From an uncultured Hyphomicrobiales bacterium (GTDB lineage Bacteria > Pseudomonadota > Alphaproteobacteria > Rhizobiales > Beijerinckiaceae): 64,000 bases of DNA. The stretch is from assembly GCA_903847605.1 (NCBI GenBank), contig CAINED010000049.1, forward strand, positions 1-64,000, read 5' to 3'. A program made the position numbers and the translations under genes. The notes under the pieces are model-generated. The model was not told the DNA's origin. It saw only the letters and a list, made by a program, of their open reading frames with translations, and searched no databases. Below, piece after piece: positions 855-38,170 of this stretch. Each line of letters starts with the position of its first letter. Within the stretch, counting starts at the first letter, position 1.

Positions 855-2814
855 AAGGCTGGCGCGGCGGGAAGGTTTTCGTGAAGCCTTCGTCGCGGGT
901 CTGCTTATGGCCGCTGTCGCTATTGGGTTGTTTGCGACGAATCCCGGCGGGTTTGCTTTTGCCTTGCGCGAAGCGGTGTTCGACAGCTTCATGCGCGCCT
1001 TTCCGCGTCAGGGTCCGGACATGCAGGTCGCGCTGGTAGATATCGACCGCGACAGCCTGGCAAAACTCGGCGCATGGCCGTGGCCGCGCGCGCGTATCGC
1101 AGCGCTGATCGGTAAAGCCGCGGAAGCAAAGCCGCGCGCCATCGCCGTCGACATTTTGTTCGAGGGGGAAGATCGCATTGGTCCGCGCGCAGCGCTGAAC
1201 CGGGTTGCGCGCGAGACGGGCAAGCCGGCCATCGCTGCTGCCGCCAGCGATCTTCCTGACGATGATGCGCTGCTTCTCGAAAGTCTCGACAAGGGTGCAC
1301 CGGTCGTTCTGGGTCTGGGGATCGCTCTCGATCCGAGAAGCAAGCCAGCAACCTTTCCTCCGCTGGTGCTCGCGACGGCGAAAGAAACACCGCTTGATCT
1401 TGCGCCTCCGCGCGTCGTCGCGCTGACGGGCCCACCGGCCGCCTTGGCCGACGCGGCGGCAGGCCTTGGCGTCTTGTCTCTCGACACGGACCGCGATGGC
1501 CGTTTGCGCCGCGTGCCCCTGTTACTCGATGTCGGTGGCCGCGGCGCTGGCCAGACCTTCGGCGGGCTTGCACTCGAAGCGCTCCGCGTCTTCGAAGGGG
1601 CAGGGACGATTATCGTCGATCCGACGTCCCGCCTTTTCGAGATCGGTACGGCGCGCATTGCCGTCGAGCGCGATACGTTGATGCGGCTTTATCCGCGTGA
1701 GTCGAATTACTGGGAGACGCGGCGCGTACCGGCGCATGCGCTGCTCGAGACAGGGCTGAAACATACTGGCGAAAACACCATCGTCGTCATCGGCAGTTCT
1801 GCGCCTGAGGCGGGGGCCTATCTTCCGGGCGCGGCCGGCGGGGCGATTCCGACATTGCTCGTGCAGGCCGAAGCGATCGACCAGTTGCGCGCCGGCGTCG
1901 CCCTCACACGTATTGCCTTCGCGCCTTCGAGCGAATTTATCGTTGCCGCATTGGCAGGCTTGCTCGCAGCTTTTGCGGCTGCTTGGCTTTCGCCTCTGCG
2001 TGCAGCTTTGACGGCCGGCGCGTTGACCTTCCTTTGTTTCGCAACGAGCTATCTGCTTTTCCGGTTTCATCTGCTGCTTGCGGATTCGCTGCCTGCGATT
2101 TCAGCTGTGATTGCGAGCGCGGGCGCGGCAAGCATCGCCGCCTATAACAGGATGCGCGGCAATCGCGCGCTGGTAGAGGCGCGTTTCGCCCGCTACCTGG
2201 CGCCGGCTGTCGTCGAGATGCTGGCGCGCGAACCGCATCGCCTGCGCATCGAGGGCGAGCGGCGCGAAGTGACGGCGCTGTTCACCGATCTCGAAGGTTT
2301 TACGTCTCTGGGCGAGCGCACGCCGCCCGAGCCTTTCATCGCCATGCTGAACGATTATTTCGAAATGGTCGCGAAAATCGCGGTTGAGCATGGCGGTATG
2401 GTCGACAAAATCGTCGGCGATGCTGTGCATGTCTTCTTCAACATGCCACTCGATCAGAAGGATCACGCCGACCGCGCATTGGCCTGCGCGCGCGCGATCC
2501 ATGCGGCGACGGAACGTTATCGCAACGACGAACGGCAGAAGACGCTCGGCTTCGGGCGCACGCGCATCGGCGTCGATACCGGGCAGGCCACGGTCGGCGA
2601 TGTCGGCGGTCCCGGCAAGCTCGATTACACGGCACACGGAGAAGCGGTGAACCGCGCCGCGCGGCTGCAAAACCTCGCACGCGAGATCCCCTCAGGCGTG
2701 CTGATCGGCGAGGGCACGGTGAAGCGCCTCTCGTCGCGTGCGGGCCTTGTGAGCTCAGGCAAGGTGGTGCCGCGCGGACAATCCGAAGAGCACGAAGTGT
2801 TCACCTTCGGGTGA
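844..2814 (+). CDS. CHASE2-domain class III adenylate cyclase
   Basis: A 656-residue membrane enzyme predicted to make cAMP from ATP. Order: one N-terminal membrane helix (about 12-32), a periplasmic CHASE2 sensor domain (about 45-360), a cluster of membrane helices (about 378-450) and a cytoplasmic class III cyclase domain (about 475-650). The catalytic set is complete: metal aspartates D482 (FTDLEG) and D526 (KIVGDA), adenine-selecting K522, and N603/R607 in VNRAAR. I chose ATG 844, which overlaps the regulator gene upstream; an upstream ATG at 802 would add a non-conserved leader. The next gene is convergent and encodes a FecR-domain protein, a common partner of CHASE2 cyclases in this order. 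The stimulus is unknown. Confidence 0.93.
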   Translation: MARERLARREGFREAFVAGLLMAAVAIGLFATNPGGFAFALREAVFDSFMRAFPRQGPDMQVALVDIDRDSLAKLGAWPWPRARIAALIGKAAEAKPRAIAVDILFEGEDRIGPRAALNRVARETGKPAIAAAASDLPDDDALLLESLDKGAPVVLGLGIALDPRSKPATFPPLVLATAKETPLDLAPPRVVALTGPPAALADAAAGLGVLSLDTDRDGRLRRVPLLLDVGGRGAGQTFGGLALEALRVFEGAGTIIVDPTSRLFEIGTARIAVERDTLMRLYPRESNYWETRRVPAHALLETGLKHTGENTIVVIGSSAPEAGAYLPGAAGGAIPTLLVQAEAIDQLRAGVALTRIAFAPSSEFIVAALAGLLAAFAAAWLSPLRAALTAGALTFLCFATSYLLFRFHLLLADSLPAISAVIASAGAASIAAYNRMRGNRALVEARFARYLAPAVVEMLAREPHRLRIEGERREVTALFTDLEGFTSLGERTPPEPFIAMLNDYFEMVAKIAVEHGGMVDKIVGDAVHVFFNMPLDQKDHADRALACARAIHAATERYRNDERQKTLGFGRTRIGVDTGQATVGDVGGPGKLDYTAHGEAVNRAARLQNLAREIPSGVLIGEGTVKRLSSRAGLVSSGKVVPRGQSEEHEVFTFG

Positions 2815-2817
2815 GGC

Positions 2818-3426
2818 TCACCTCACCGCGCGCATCGCATCGTTGATGCGCGCATCGCCCCACACAGCCGCAGGTGTGGGCCTTGCGCCAGGCGTTGCGA
2901 TGTTTGTGCCCTCCCCGGCGCGCAGACGCACCGAACCGGCGCCATTGCTGACATCGACTTCGCCGAGCACGACGAAGACGCCGAAGACGCCATTGCTCGG
3001 TCCGGCAAAGACAGTCGTTCCGCGTACGGCGAGCAAGGCGTAGGGCGAGCGGATGGTAACCTCGGGTTTGGGATCGGGCGGGCTACGCTCGAACATGACG
3101 GCACCTTCGCCGAGATGAATCGTTCCGCCGCGCTGGACGAGATGATTGTCGATCATCACGCGCGTATTCTCGCCCATGTAGAGTTGTGTCGCGGGGCCGA
3201 GGCGCGCCTGAAGACGCGAACTTGCCGCTGTCTGGATGCGCTCGCTGACGAATATCTGCTGGCCCATTCCGAGGGAGCGCTGTTCGCCGCCGCGTCGCGC
3301 GGTTGCGTTACCCTGCATGCCGGCGACTGTGCCTGCTGCCGCGCTCTGCGCCCATGCGTCAAGCGACTTGCATCCCGCAATGGCGGCAGCGCCAAATCCT
3401 AAGAGCATATGACGGCGGTCGATCAT
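2818..3426 (-). CDS. FecR-domain periplasmic protein
   Basis: A 202-residue protein with a Tat-like or lipoprotein-like leader (DRRHMLLGFGAAAIAGCKSL; the twin Arg and the AGC lipobox are both visible) followed by one FecR beta-domain in RLGPATQLYMGENTRVMI and the region ending LAVRGTTVF. FecR domains of this soluble type are often found beside CHASE2 cyclases and are thought to sense or scaffold at the envelope; here the gene converges on the cyclase with 3 bases between stops. There is no TonB receptor or ECF sigma factor near by, so the classical iron-citrate role is unlikely. ATG 3426 is preferred over 3432 because GGGAG sits seven bases upstream of it. Confidence 0.82.
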   Translation of the reverse strand: MIDRRHMLLGFGAAAIAGCKSLDAWAQSAAAGTVAGMQGNATARRGGEQRSLGMGQQIFVSERIQTAASSRLQARLGPATQLYMGENTRVMIDNHLVQRGGTIHLGEGAVMFERSPPDPKPEVTIRSPYALLAVRGTTVFAGPSNGVFGVFVVLGEVDVSNGAGSVRLRAGEGTNIATPGARPTPAAVWGDARINDAMRAVR

Positions 3427-32287: not shown

Positions 32288-34204
<1,917 letters not shown>

Positions 34205-34236: not shown

Positions 34237-34261
34237 GGCCGGGCCTCGCGCCCGGCCTTTT
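34237..34261 (+). terminator. rho-independent terminator after dnaK
   Basis: Stem GGCCGGGC / GCCCGGCC with a five-base loop followed by TTTT, 33 bases after the dnaK stop. It separates dnaK from the duplicated methyltransferase-like gene. Confidence 0.85.
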
Positions 34262-34348
34262 CGCATGCGTATCGAGGCCTTCCAAAGTGACAAGCATCTC
34301 GCGCTTTGCTAAACATGCCTCGCGATTTGCAGCGCGGAGACCGGATTA

Positions 34349-35656
34349 TTGCTGAATTACTTGCGAAAAATTCACCGGCAAAACCGGCGTATCGTCGGCA
34401 GGATGTTGCGCACGATACTGCGCCGTCCCGCGCCGCCGCGAGAGGTCGTTCCAGCCGGCGACGAAGCTTTTCACGCTTTGAAGAAGAAGGCCAATCCGAA
34501 GAAGTTTCCGTCGGAGGTCATCAAGGGCTGCGAGTCTGCGGCGTCGTTTTTCTGCGCAGCTTTCGAGGGCTATAATGATGTCGTTCACATTCATCGCAGG
34601 GGTTTGAAGGAACTCGTCCTCGTCGATCTCGACAATGAGAAGCTCGAGGCGATGGCAAAAATCTATCGCGGCGACGAGGTTTCGCTGCGTAGCGGCGACG
34701 CCTTCGAGATCGCGCGCGAATGGCGGCTCGAGGGCCGCAAGTTCGACATCGTGATCACCGATCCATGGTCGAACATCATGCAGCGCACAGCGATTGCGGA
34801 TCTACCGCTCTTCGCCGGTCTCGCGCGCAAATACTATCTCACGGGTCTGACCGGCGCGGATTTTGCCGCGCTCGGCATCAAGCCTGACGTGGAAGAATTC
34901 AATGCCTGGCTTGCCGCGCATGGACGCGGCGCCTATCGCATCGACCGGCTGATCCAGCGCAATCCCGATTATCTCGGCGGCGTTTACTGGCTGGTCTTTC
35001 CGGTTGAAGGCGTTCCCGAACAGCCACTGGAAGAGCCGGCGGAATCTGTCTCGCATGAGACGGCAAGCGCCTCCGCGCTGCCTGCATACGCTGCTACCGG
35101 CGAAGACGCTTTCGAACAATTGCGCGCACAGGCCGATCCGAAGATATTCCCGACCGATATCGTCAACGGCAGCGAATCCGCATTGTCCTTTTTCTGTGCG
35201 GCTTTTCTGGGCGTCAACGACGCGGTTCACCTGCACAAGAAGGGATTGAAGGAACTTCTGCTTGTCGATGTCAACGAGGAAAAGCTCAACGCGATGCGCG
35301 AAATCTATCTCGGCGACGAGGTAGGCTTCGAGCATGGCGATGCGTTCCGCGTCGCACGCGCCTTGCGTCATCGCGGTCGCAAGTTCGACATCGTCATCAC
35401 CGATCCCTGGTCGAACATCATGCAGCGGACTTCGGTGACCGATCTGCCGCTTTTCGCGGCCCTCGCCAACAAGTGTTATCTTTCGGGCCTGACGGGCGTC
35501 GATTTCGAAGAAATGGGCATCAAGCCCGATGTGCGCGCTCTCAATAAGTATCTCGCGAAGAATGGCCGCGGGGATTATCGGGTCGACAGGCTCATCCTGC
35601 GCAATCCCGGCCACCAGGGCGGCGTCTACTGGGTGATTTTCAAGATCGCGAATTAG
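34349..35656 (+). CDS. tandem-duplicated methyltransferase-like protein
   Basis: A 435-residue protein built from two copies of one Rossmann-like domain (residues 37-218 and 251-432) that align without any gap at an offset of 214 residues; by hand about 115 of 183 positions are identical. Each copy has LKEL(V/L)LVD, like methyltransferase motif I/II with an acidic end, and an invariant ITDPWSNIMQRT in the place of a catalytic (D/N)PP(Y/W)-like motif. Each also ends in NP..GGVYW. Enzyme class and substrate are unknown. The start is taken as TTG 34349, 10 bases after GGAG; ATG 34403 is an alternative. It lies between dnaK and dnaJ. Confidence 0.7.
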   Translation: MLNYLRKIHRQNRRIVGRMLRTILRRPAPPREVVPAGDEAFHALKKKANPKKFPSEVIKGCESAASFFCAAFEGYNDVVHIHRRGLKELVLVDLDNEKLEAMAKIYRGDEVSLRSGDAFEIAREWRLEGRKFDIVITDPWSNIMQRTAIADLPLFAGLARKYYLTGLTGADFAALGIKPDVEEFNAWLAAHGRGAYRIDRLIQRNPDYLGGVYWLVFPVEGVPEQPLEEPAESVSHETASASALPAYAATGEDAFEQLRAQADPKIFPTDIVNGSESALSFFCAAFLGVNDAVHLHKKGLKELLLVDVNEEKLNAMREIYLGDEVGFEHGDAFRVARALRHRGRKFDIVITDPWSNIMQRTSVTDLPLFAALANKCYLSGLTGVDFEEMGIKPDVRALNKYLAKNGRGDYRVDRLILRNPGHQGGVYWVIFKIAN

Positions 35657-35747
35657 CCATCGCCGAACCTGCGGAACTTCCCGTCCCGTGGCACGCAATC
35701 TGCTGTCCTCCAGAGGACATAGAACATTGTGCCATTTCGGGACGAAA

Positions 35748-36842
35748 ATGCATTACCGGATTTTTTCGACGTGGAGACTGGTCGCAGCGCTCGCGATCAT
35801 GCTCTACCATTTCGCCCATCACGGGCCGCCCGGATCGATGCTGCTGGTCGAACGCATCGAGTTGATGCTGCCGATGCTTGACATGTTCTTCATCATATCA
35901 GGCTTCCTGATTTTCGAAGCCTATCGCGACAAGATTGGCAATGCGCGGGAATATGCGTCCTACATTGCGCGGCGTTTCGCGCGAATCTATCCGCTGCACA
36001 TCATCACCCTGGCTTTCTTCGTCGCCGTCGGCATCGCCGGCCATTTCGGCTATGTGAAGACAGGCGGAGCCGCGCGTTACGATCTCTCGCAATTGTTGCC
36101 CAATCTTCTCCTCATGCAAGCCTGGGGCGTCACGCGAGAGCTGAGCCTCAACTATGTCTCATGGTCGTTGTCGGCCGAATGGTTCTGCTACCTGCTGCTG
36201 CCGCTGATCGTCCTGTTCTTCCGGTACGGCGGCGCGGCGGGGCTGCTCGCGCTTTTCGCCATGACCGTCGCCATACTGGAAACGCTGAGCGCGACGGGCG
36301 TCGTTCCCTTCAAAAGCTGGTTGATGGCGGATACCTGGGGCGCCTATCGCGCCTTTGCAGATTTTACCATGGGCGCCTTCATCGCCGCGGCTGCGAACGG
36401 TAGCCGCATGACGCTTCGTTCGCACTGTCCGGCGTGGCTGACCATGCTGTCCGCCATCGTGACGATGCAGCTGAAATGGCCGCCTTATCTCGGCTATGGG
36501 CTGGTCGCTGCCGCCCTCTATCTCGCGGCTGTGTGCGAGCGCAATGCGCCGGAGCGCTCGCGCTGGCTCGATTTCGCTGCGCCGGCTGCGACCGTCTCCT
36601 TCGGCATCTACATGTGGCATCCGGTCATCGAAACGCTGACTTTTCACTTCGTCTGGCCGAGGCTGGTCGCGCCGTTGGGCATCAATTTCTACGCTTTCCT
36701 GCCCTTGCCGATGGCCGTGTCGGTGCTGATCGCCTGGGCCTCCTATCACAGCCTCGAGCGCTGGACCGGCAGATGGCTGGCGTGGCGGCTCGGCGCCCTC
36801 GCCAATTCCCGCCGGGCGAGGCTTCCTGCCGCCGGAGAGTGA
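35748..36842 (+). CDS. acyltransferase 3 family (OafA/YrhL-like) membrane protein
   Basis: A 364-residue inner-membrane protein with about ten helices. It begins MHYRIFSTWRLVAALAIMLYHF, with the family's R-x10-H motif, and contains SGFLIFEAYRD and SWSLSAEWFCYL, as in O-antigen and exopolysaccharide O-acetyltransferases. It would move an acyl group across the membrane to a surface glycan. It follows the duplicated methyltransferase-like gene by 91 bases, on the same strand, and precedes dnaJ by about 200. No glycan synthesis genes are near by. Confidence 0.9.
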   Translation: MHYRIFSTWRLVAALAIMLYHFAHHGPPGSMLLVERIELMLPMLDMFFIISGFLIFEAYRDKIGNAREYASYIARRFARIYPLHIITLAFFVAVGIAGHFGYVKTGGAARYDLSQLLPNLLLMQAWGVTRELSLNYVSWSLSAEWFCYLLLPLIVLFFRYGGAAGLLALFAMTVAILETLSATGVVPFKSWLMADTWGAYRAFADFTMGAFIAAAANGSRMTLRSHCPAWLTMLSAIVTMQLKWPPYLGYGLVAAALYLAAVCERNAPERSRWLDFAAPAATVSFGIYMWHPVIETLTFHFVWPRLVAPLGINFYAFLPLPMAVSVLIAWASYHSLERWTGRWLAWRLGALANSRRARLPAAGE

Positions 36843-37045: not shown

Positions 37046-38170
37046 ATGAACAATGATTTTTACGAGACTTTGGGGGTTTCGAAGACGGCCGACGATGCGG
37101 CCCTGAAATCCGCCTTCCGCAAGCTCGCGATGCAATATCACCCGGATCGCAATCCCGGCGACAAGGAAGCGGAATCGAAGTTCAAGGACATCAATCAGGC
37201 CTATGAAATCCTGAAGGACCCGCAAAAGCGCGCCGCCTATGACCGCTACGGCCATGCGGCCTTCCAGAACGGCGGCGGGCCGGGCGCAGGCGACGGTTTC
37301 GCCTCCTCGATGGCCGACATTTTCGAAGATCTCTTTGGAAATATGATGGGCGGCGGCCGGCAACGCTCCGGTGGGCGCGAGCGCGGCTCGGACCTGCGCT
37401 ACAATCTCGAAATCACGCTGGAAGAGGCCTTCCACGGCAAGGCCGCCAGCATCAAGGTGCCGACGGCCGTTTCCTGCGAGCCTTGCAGCGGCTCCGGCGC
37501 GAAGCCCGGTTCCAAGCCCAAGACCTGCGCCACCTGCGGCGGGCAGGGGCGCGTGCGCGCCCAGCAGGGGTTCTTCGCCATCGAGCGCACCTGCCATGTC
37601 TGCCAGGGACGCGGCCAGACGATCGACGATCCCTGTCCGACCTGCAAGGGCGCGGGCCGCGTGACGAAAGAGCGCCAGCTTTCGGTCAATATCCCCGCGG
37701 GCGTCGAGGATGGCACGCGTATTCGCCTCGCCGGCGAAGGCGAGGGCGGGTTGCGCGGCGGGCCGGCCGGCGACCTCTACATTTTCCTCAGCGTGAAACC
37801 GCATGCCTTCTTCCAGCGCGATGGCGCTGACCTTTACTGCCGCGTGCCGATCTCGATGGTGCAGGCGTCGCTCGGCGGCGAGTTCTCCCTGCGCGGTCTC
37901 GACGGCACGGAAGTGCGGGTGAAGATTCCCGAGGGCACGCAATCCGGGCGTCAGTTCCGCCTGAAGACGAAGGGTATGCCGGTGCTGCGTTCGCGTAATA
38001 TCGGCGACCTGCATGTGCAGGTCGATGTCGAGACGCCGCAGAATCTCACCAAGCGCCAGCGCGAATTGCTGATGGAATTCGAGAAGGAATCGTCCGGGAA
38101 AACCCACCCGGAATCGAGCGGCTTCTTCTCGAAGATGAAGGATCTGTTCGAGAAGATGAGTGGATCCTGA
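37046..38170 (+). CDS. dnaJ: co-chaperone DnaJ
   Basis: A 374-residue Hsp40. The J domain has YHPDRNPG (HPD motif), followed by a Gly/Phe region, four CxxCxGxG zinc repeats (starting [32 protein letters not shown]) and the C-terminal beta domains. It activates DnaK ATPase and delivers substrates. The region upstream (about 200 bases) has no obvious promoter match, so it may be transcribed with the acyltransferase gene or alone. Confidence 0.99.

Follow-up and report, generated by a model that had tools for sequence, protein, structure and literature searches.

The Nod factor enzymes NodB, NodA and NodS are a deacetylase, an N-acyltransferase and an N-methyltransferase, respectively. For the mycobacteriophages Che8 and Rita, passages of PMC11256854 report virion glycosylation and present phage-borne glycosyltransferases that are thought to decorate capsid proteins. 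Plant PEAMT and PRMT9, both eukaryotic, are described as having tandem methyltransferase domains in one chain. Here we analyzed a 64,000-nucleotide stretch (hereafter the window) from an uncultured Hyphomicrobiales bacterium of the Beijerinckiaceae (GenBank assembly GCA_903847605.1, contig CAINED010000049.1, positions 1 to 64,000), in which the gene at 34349-35656 encodes a tandemly duplicated methyltransferase-like protein. We consider it somewhat probable that this protein belongs to a small, uncatalogued family of the class I S-adenosylmethionine (AdoMet)-methyltransferase fold and acts in a glycan-decorating module, together with GNAT-like and NodB-like partner proteins. Such a module would unite the same three types of chemistry as NodB-NodA-NodS in one gene group; its acyltransferase, however, is FemX-like, and the likeness is one of chemistry type. 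Relative to Che8 and Rita as those passages depict them, the module has, close to head and tail genes, further genes that resemble deacetylases, FemX and methyltransferases, and the resemblance to PEAMT and PRMT9 is one of domain arrangement. Overall, we rate the module as a variant among glycan-modifying gene sets and not as a new kind of system. The gene has the following parts:

34349 to 35656, plus strand: gene of the two-domain methyltransferase-like protein, 435 amino acids, TTG start, stop codon included
34336 to 34339, plus strand: Shine-Dalgarno-like GGAG, 9 nucleotides upstream of the TTG
34349 to 34456, plus strand: N-terminal extension, residues 1-36, basic/hydrophobic, similar by eye in the relative P0004
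34457 to 35002, plus strand: repeat 1, residues 37-218, from self-alignment
34757 to 34789, plus strand: TDPWSNIMQRT of repeat 1 in the motif IV region, read in the sequence
35003 to 35098, plus strand: linker, residues 219-250, from self-alignment
35099 to 35644, plus strand: repeat 2, residues 251-432, from self-alignment; modelled stretch 35099-35653, predicted local distance difference test (pLDDT) score 95.5
35399 to 35431, plus strand: TDPWSNIMQRT of repeat 2, read in the sequence

The TTG start is supported because GGAG lies 9 nucleotides upstream and because P0004, a 232-residue single-domain relative encoded on a 2,410-base contig, aligns by eye with the 435-residue protein from its first residue onward. 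The database copy of the protein (P0002) begins at the ATG at 34403 and has 417 residues. By eye, a basic/hydrophobic N-terminus seems common to the doubled protein (34349-34456) and the FemX-like partner of the same genome (L029, 10491-10600), and is missing from the forms of the same-genus genome G045; these N-termini perhaps mediate membrane association.

Residues 37-218 and 251-432 align gap-free at an offset of 214 with 115 of 182 positions identical (63.2%), bearing out the original prediction of a gap-free tandem duplication of about 63% identity in which both halves keep TDPWSNIMQRT letter for letter. Over the whole protein this offset yields 117 matches in 221 positions, as compared to 40 for the runner-up among offsets 20-399 and a maximum of 38 in 100 shuffled proteins (offsets 100-299). 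The DNA of the repeats is 69% identical, with 75, 80 and 52% identity at codon positions 1, 2 and 3, and the NG86 method gave nonsynonymous (dN) and synonymous (dS) divergences of 0.28 and 1.10. The 52% identity at third positions and the dN/dS of ~0.25 therefore indicate an old duplication with both copies kept under constraint; as judged from sequence, the duplication is real, old and constrained. Residues invariant across the family are present in both halves, whose activity, as supposed in the original prediction, is putative. Single-domain homologues, whose existence the prediction had left to be checked, do exist: P0004 shares 69% identity with repeat 1 and 65% with repeat 2, and groups with repeat 1 (93/83) in a tree with short branches that leaves repeat 2 outside.

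The model of repeat 2 has a predicted seven-strand Rossmann-like methyltransferase fold. Its closest folds are methyltransferases, and the best neighbours by sequence and fold include the rRNA methyltransferases RlmI and RsmD; model and neighbours thus agree with the domain type originally proposed. Across 38 aligned family rows, G38 and D41 are invariant, as is D57 at the motif II place, at the end of modelled strand 2 (residues 52-57), and D57, D81 and D102 (motif II, III and IV places) are all invariant or nearly so. Rows of the underlying alignments (A7-A9) were hand-chosen, with viral boundaries taken from iterated profiles (23 viral rows from 30 contigs in A9).

In Pfam and NCBIfam scans the 435-residue protein fell below the cut-off of every curated family (NF046099, 35.7 of 600 bits; NF011707 for RlmI, 25.2 of 712; NF053718, 22.6 of 575), consistent with the first impression that no described family of this two-domain form was recognizable. 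None of ten proteins exceeded an NCBIfam cut-off, and across the Pfam and NCBIfam scans with stated cut-offs the sole member of the three module families to reach one was P0003, a single-domain relative of 247 residues with an N-terminal helix-turn-helix (HTH_28/PF13518, 25.5 bits versus a cut-off of 25). PF03602 was matched by 2 of 38 family members at E ≤ 0.01 (best 0.0073). Compared with the RlmI/RlmCD-type 23S and RsmD 16S rRNA methyltransferases, the doubled protein has no further Pfam domain, a degenerate motif I, scores far below cut-offs and a different gene context. A defence role was checked as well: in PADLOC the 435-residue protein matched mad2 (E 1.4e-9, strongest over residues 78-148) and MTase_II (0.0016), and none of eight further proteins had a match at E 0.01. 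The prediction had also read an amino-methyltransferase loop, and hence N-methylation, into the conserved motif. The loop motif of amino-methyltransferases is (D/N/S)PP(Y/F/W). The family has DPW(S/T)N or variants, and N-methylation does not follow from this loop because it is one proline short and P103 is not invariant.

The viral contigs L008 and L009, along with L031, which looks unrelated to them, carry the methyltransferase-like, GNAT-like and NodB-like families side by side, the three also found in the Beijerinckiaceae locus L003 described below, and profiles of the two partners recovered 12 and 54 viral loci, or 60 contigs in total. All three families occur in 29 of these, GNAT and NodB in 9, GNAT and the methyltransferase-like family in one (L042, where the methyltransferase-like frame reaches the locus end) and NodB only in 21. 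The counts derive from un-iterated profiles with loci L004-L007 excluded, as iterated profiles had taken in rRNA-methyltransferase loci; at least four pairs among the contigs have scores that are the same or almost the same (L032/L033, L039/L040, L059/L060 and L067/L068), and L008 and L031 match by construction, having contributed members to the partner profiles. In these 60 contigs the methyltransferase-like family was not found without a GNAT gene (30 of 30), and of the NodB-fetched loci, 24 of the 33 that have GNAT contain it, as do 0 of the 21 that lack GNAT. All 29 triads lie on a single strand, with a median gap of -78 bases between the stop-to-stop frames of the methyltransferase-like and GNAT genes. 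Four orders were observed: GNAT-methyltransferase-like-NodB (21), methyltransferase-like-GNAT-NodB (4), NodB-GNAT-methyltransferase-like (2) and GNAT-NodB-methyltransferase-like (2). Joint function is well evidenced, since gene order changes while the three families keep company.

A GT2-like gene lies near 18 of the 29 triads, 4 of the 9 GNAT and NodB contigs and none of the 21 NodB-only contigs, counting matches below 1e-60 to a profile from a GT-like cluster contaminated by ordinary methyltransferases. Five of ten viral proteins tested match head, tail or packaging families, namely a major head protein and a tape measure protein in L031, a major head protein in L053, a tape measure protein in L071 and a terminase in L008. 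Since virion glycosylation is reported for Che8 and Rita in passages of PMC11256854, a virion target is credible, although not established. Two sulfotransferase-like frames (by eye) adjoin the module in L008 (8550-10159) and are not listed in the otherwise similar L009.

The GNAT-like partner shows the GNAT fold of the FemX kind, and PF13480 was matched by 2 of 32 members. It is 10-18% identical to FemX/FemA and to the streptothricin-type aminoacyl-tRNA-dependent Sba18/Sbb17, and a tRNA dependence of the partner would be hypothetical. CE4/NodB deacetylases have an Asp-His-His metal-binding pattern. The NodB-like family conserves RHDVD and GHExGxH motifs, and in 28 rows D58, D60, H128 and H275 are invariant and H123 nearly so, with putative roles. 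In a profile search of the PDB with this family, the best deacetylase match had an E value of 0.74, and PDB sequence searches with the partner proteins gave nothing significant (lowest E 0.047 and 0.35, both unrelated proteins).

The three families recur in a bacterial capsule cluster. Locus L003 (CANJJI010000038.1, Beijerinckiaceae metagenome-assembled genome RH-23may17-1181) has a single-domain gene (781-1425) abutting a 279-residue gene (1422-2261), then a NodB-like gene on the opposite strand (2295-3146), beyond which lie Wza-, KpsE-, KpsT- and KpsM-like genes (by eye). In the window's own genome, orthologues of the NodB-like (65%) and GNAT-like (73%) partners adjoin on contig C80 (82567-84503), in a cluster that by eye includes KpsC/S-, KpsM-, KpsT-, KpsE-, Wza-, WecB-, WecC- and WlbA/B-like genes. 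Among 51 same-genus genomes, close partner orthologues occur only in the two that carry the methyltransferase-like family: the GNAT-like family has matches in 7, five at only 27-32% identity and outside capsule clusters (by eye), and the NodB-like family in 3, the third at 46%. This co-occurrence in two genomes, maybe sisters, is suggestive only. The link to glycans is drawn from the capsule clusters, the GT2-like genes and the partner families.

Two of the 51 genomes have family members, the window's genome in doubled form and G045 as a single domain (40% identity), and a profile search of 200 relatives found the same two. Across the phylum, 398 genomes were surveyed and 126 of them had matches within E 0.001, with full-length matches (168 and 165 bits) only in the window's genome; in the other 125, matches cover part of the profile and score no higher than 34.1 bits, and many fall in frames ~400 residues long, as in RlmI. 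A contig scan with the whole 435-residue protein found no relative, and a profile scan found L003 and four loci (L004-L007), which were rejected as members when their frames were read by eye as rRNA-methyltransferase-like. Neither a phage collection of 50,697 records (four queries) nor a plasmid search with P0004 gave a match, and literature searches did not find the three-family module or the methyltransferase-like family. So far as searched, the doubled protein is a variant confined to one genome; a second two-domain member would be detectable mainly in one protein search, which covered the top 8000 candidates by common words at 0.55-1.75 times the query length.

In the window, the gene stands among the following features:

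32288 to 34204, plus strand: dnaK (by eye)
34237 to 34257, strand unassigned: G+C hairpin then TTTT, between dnaK and the doubled gene (the scan scored the minus strand only)
35688 to 36842, plus strand: Acyl_transf_3 (OafA-like) acyltransferase (PF01757, E 1.3e-23), present in relatives without the doubled gene
37046 to 38170, plus strand: dnaJ (by eye), with matches at E ≤ 1e-80 in 48 of the 51 same-genus genomes

Hairpin/TTTT sites are not commoner than in shuffled sequence (3 versus a mean of 3.5). Gene order was viewed at 30 same-genus dnaJ loci, out of the 48 genomes in which dnaJ was matched, and we observed dnaK upstream within ~0.8 kb in 25, oafA upstream in 4 and neither in 1. Those with oafA belong to the window's genome (35688-36842), G045, G032 and G013 (loci L107, L108, L109 and L136). 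G045 has dnaK-oafA-dnaJ without a methyltransferase-like gene, its family member lying elsewhere; in G013 the frame beyond oafA is a different one, and in G032 the contig ends there. Next to the oafA-dnaJ locus of G013 lies a frame that by eye resembles an integrase or transposase (L137, 3978-4706) and could explain insertions at this site. DnaK and DnaJ had been suggested as substrates, and a chaperone-linked role was set aside on this comparison: 25 of 30 loci have dnaK upstream without the gene, as does the dnaK-oafA-dnaJ locus of G045, and viral members sit with glycan-type genes. The neighbours of the single-copy relatives, where visible, in viruses and in one capsule cluster, point to sugar decoration and not to a chaperone link.

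From these comparisons we infer AdoMet binding, methyl transfer, a glycan substrate and the sequence in which the module's enzymes would act. A GT2-like transferase would place a sugar, the NodB/CE4-like deacetylase would strip its N-acetyl group, and the FemX/GNAT-like transferase would add an acyl, perhaps aminoacyl, group onto the freed amine. The methyltransferase-like protein would then methylate the product, on the amino sugar or its acyl group, to give a capped surface glycan. In phages, the module amid virion genes may mark virion or host-surface glycans, and in the window's bacterium the doubled protein may finish the capsule made by the C80 cluster. We think it unlikely that a more specific version holds in full, namely that this is an undescribed mobile glycan-capping module in which an aminoacyl-tRNA-dependent FemX-like enzyme adds an amino acid to the sugar amine freed by the deacetylase before methylation, that phages carry it amid virion genes and mark particles or the host surface with it, that a Beijerinckiaceae lineage uses it for capsule and that one species doubled the methyltransferase for two successive methylations per chain.

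Several observations weigh against a glycan methyltransferase. Motif I of class I AdoMet-methyltransferases is glycine-rich, D/ExGxGxG. At its place the family reads FxAAFxGxND (alignment, by eye), keeping a single glycine and lacking the acidic residue. Furthermore, 3 of 38 members match the NAD-binding Rossmann family PF03721 (best 5.4e-4, lower than for any other listed Pfam family apart from HTH ones). Together with the missing (D/N/S)PP(Y/F/W) loop and a frame that, in most of the 29 viral triads, runs into that of the GNAT gene, these features would suit a protein with the methyltransferase fold that is not an active methyltransferase, one that has a different nucleotide as its ligand or acts as the scaffold on which the deacetylase and the FemX-like enzyme assemble, the duplication providing two docking sites. 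We find this reading rather doubtful: the closest folds are methyltransferases, and the full or near invariance of D57, D81 and D102 is what a ligand site would show. The module itself is also open to objection. The methyltransferase-like gene is not obligatory, given the 9 viral contigs with GNAT and NodB and the 21 with NodB alone; the doubled gene is not beside its partners in the window's genome; and the NodB label draws on motifs and on a single member's match to PF01522 that falls short of the threshold (E 0.03, 14.7 of 23.1 bits), with PF01522 reaching E 0.01 in 0 of 28 members and DUF2334 in one (0.0028).

In phages, the substrate might be a protein of the virion, a glycan of the host or another molecule altogether. 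Methylation of a protein, such as a virion protein or chaperone, or of RNA or DNA, with phage cargo hot spots accounting for the linkage to glycan genes, would fit RlmI and RsmD as neighbours, the best PHROG match (DNA methyltransferase phrog_26699, E 1.5e-5 over 33 residues) and the positions between dnaK and dnaJ in the window and near head and tail genes in phages. However, hot spots sit poorly with three families that keep together through four viral gene orders and recur in a bacterial capsule cluster; NodB-, FemX- and GT2-like partners are ill-suited to nucleic acid, and G045 has dnaK and dnaJ without the gene, making this substrate class improbable. Finally, the scarcity of the family (any member in 2 of 51 same-genus genomes), the separation from its partners and a G+C content at third codon positions of 0.71, versus 0.78-0.86 in three neighbour genes, could mark the doubled gene as a copy that has strayed from its former place, has no function of its own and is on its way to being lost. 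Purifying constraint on the repeats (dN/dS ~0.25), an intact frame, the Shine-Dalgarno-like site and family-invariant residues in both halves render that outcome very improbable.

How phages decorate glycans has been studied only recently, and little is known of the enzymes that modify sugars after their transfer. Three uncatalogued families that keep company in 29 viral contigs, and do so again in a capsule cluster of a bacterium, provide a testable target and predict that an amino sugar is modified in a specific way; the doubled form constitutes a natural two-domain construct for biochemistry.
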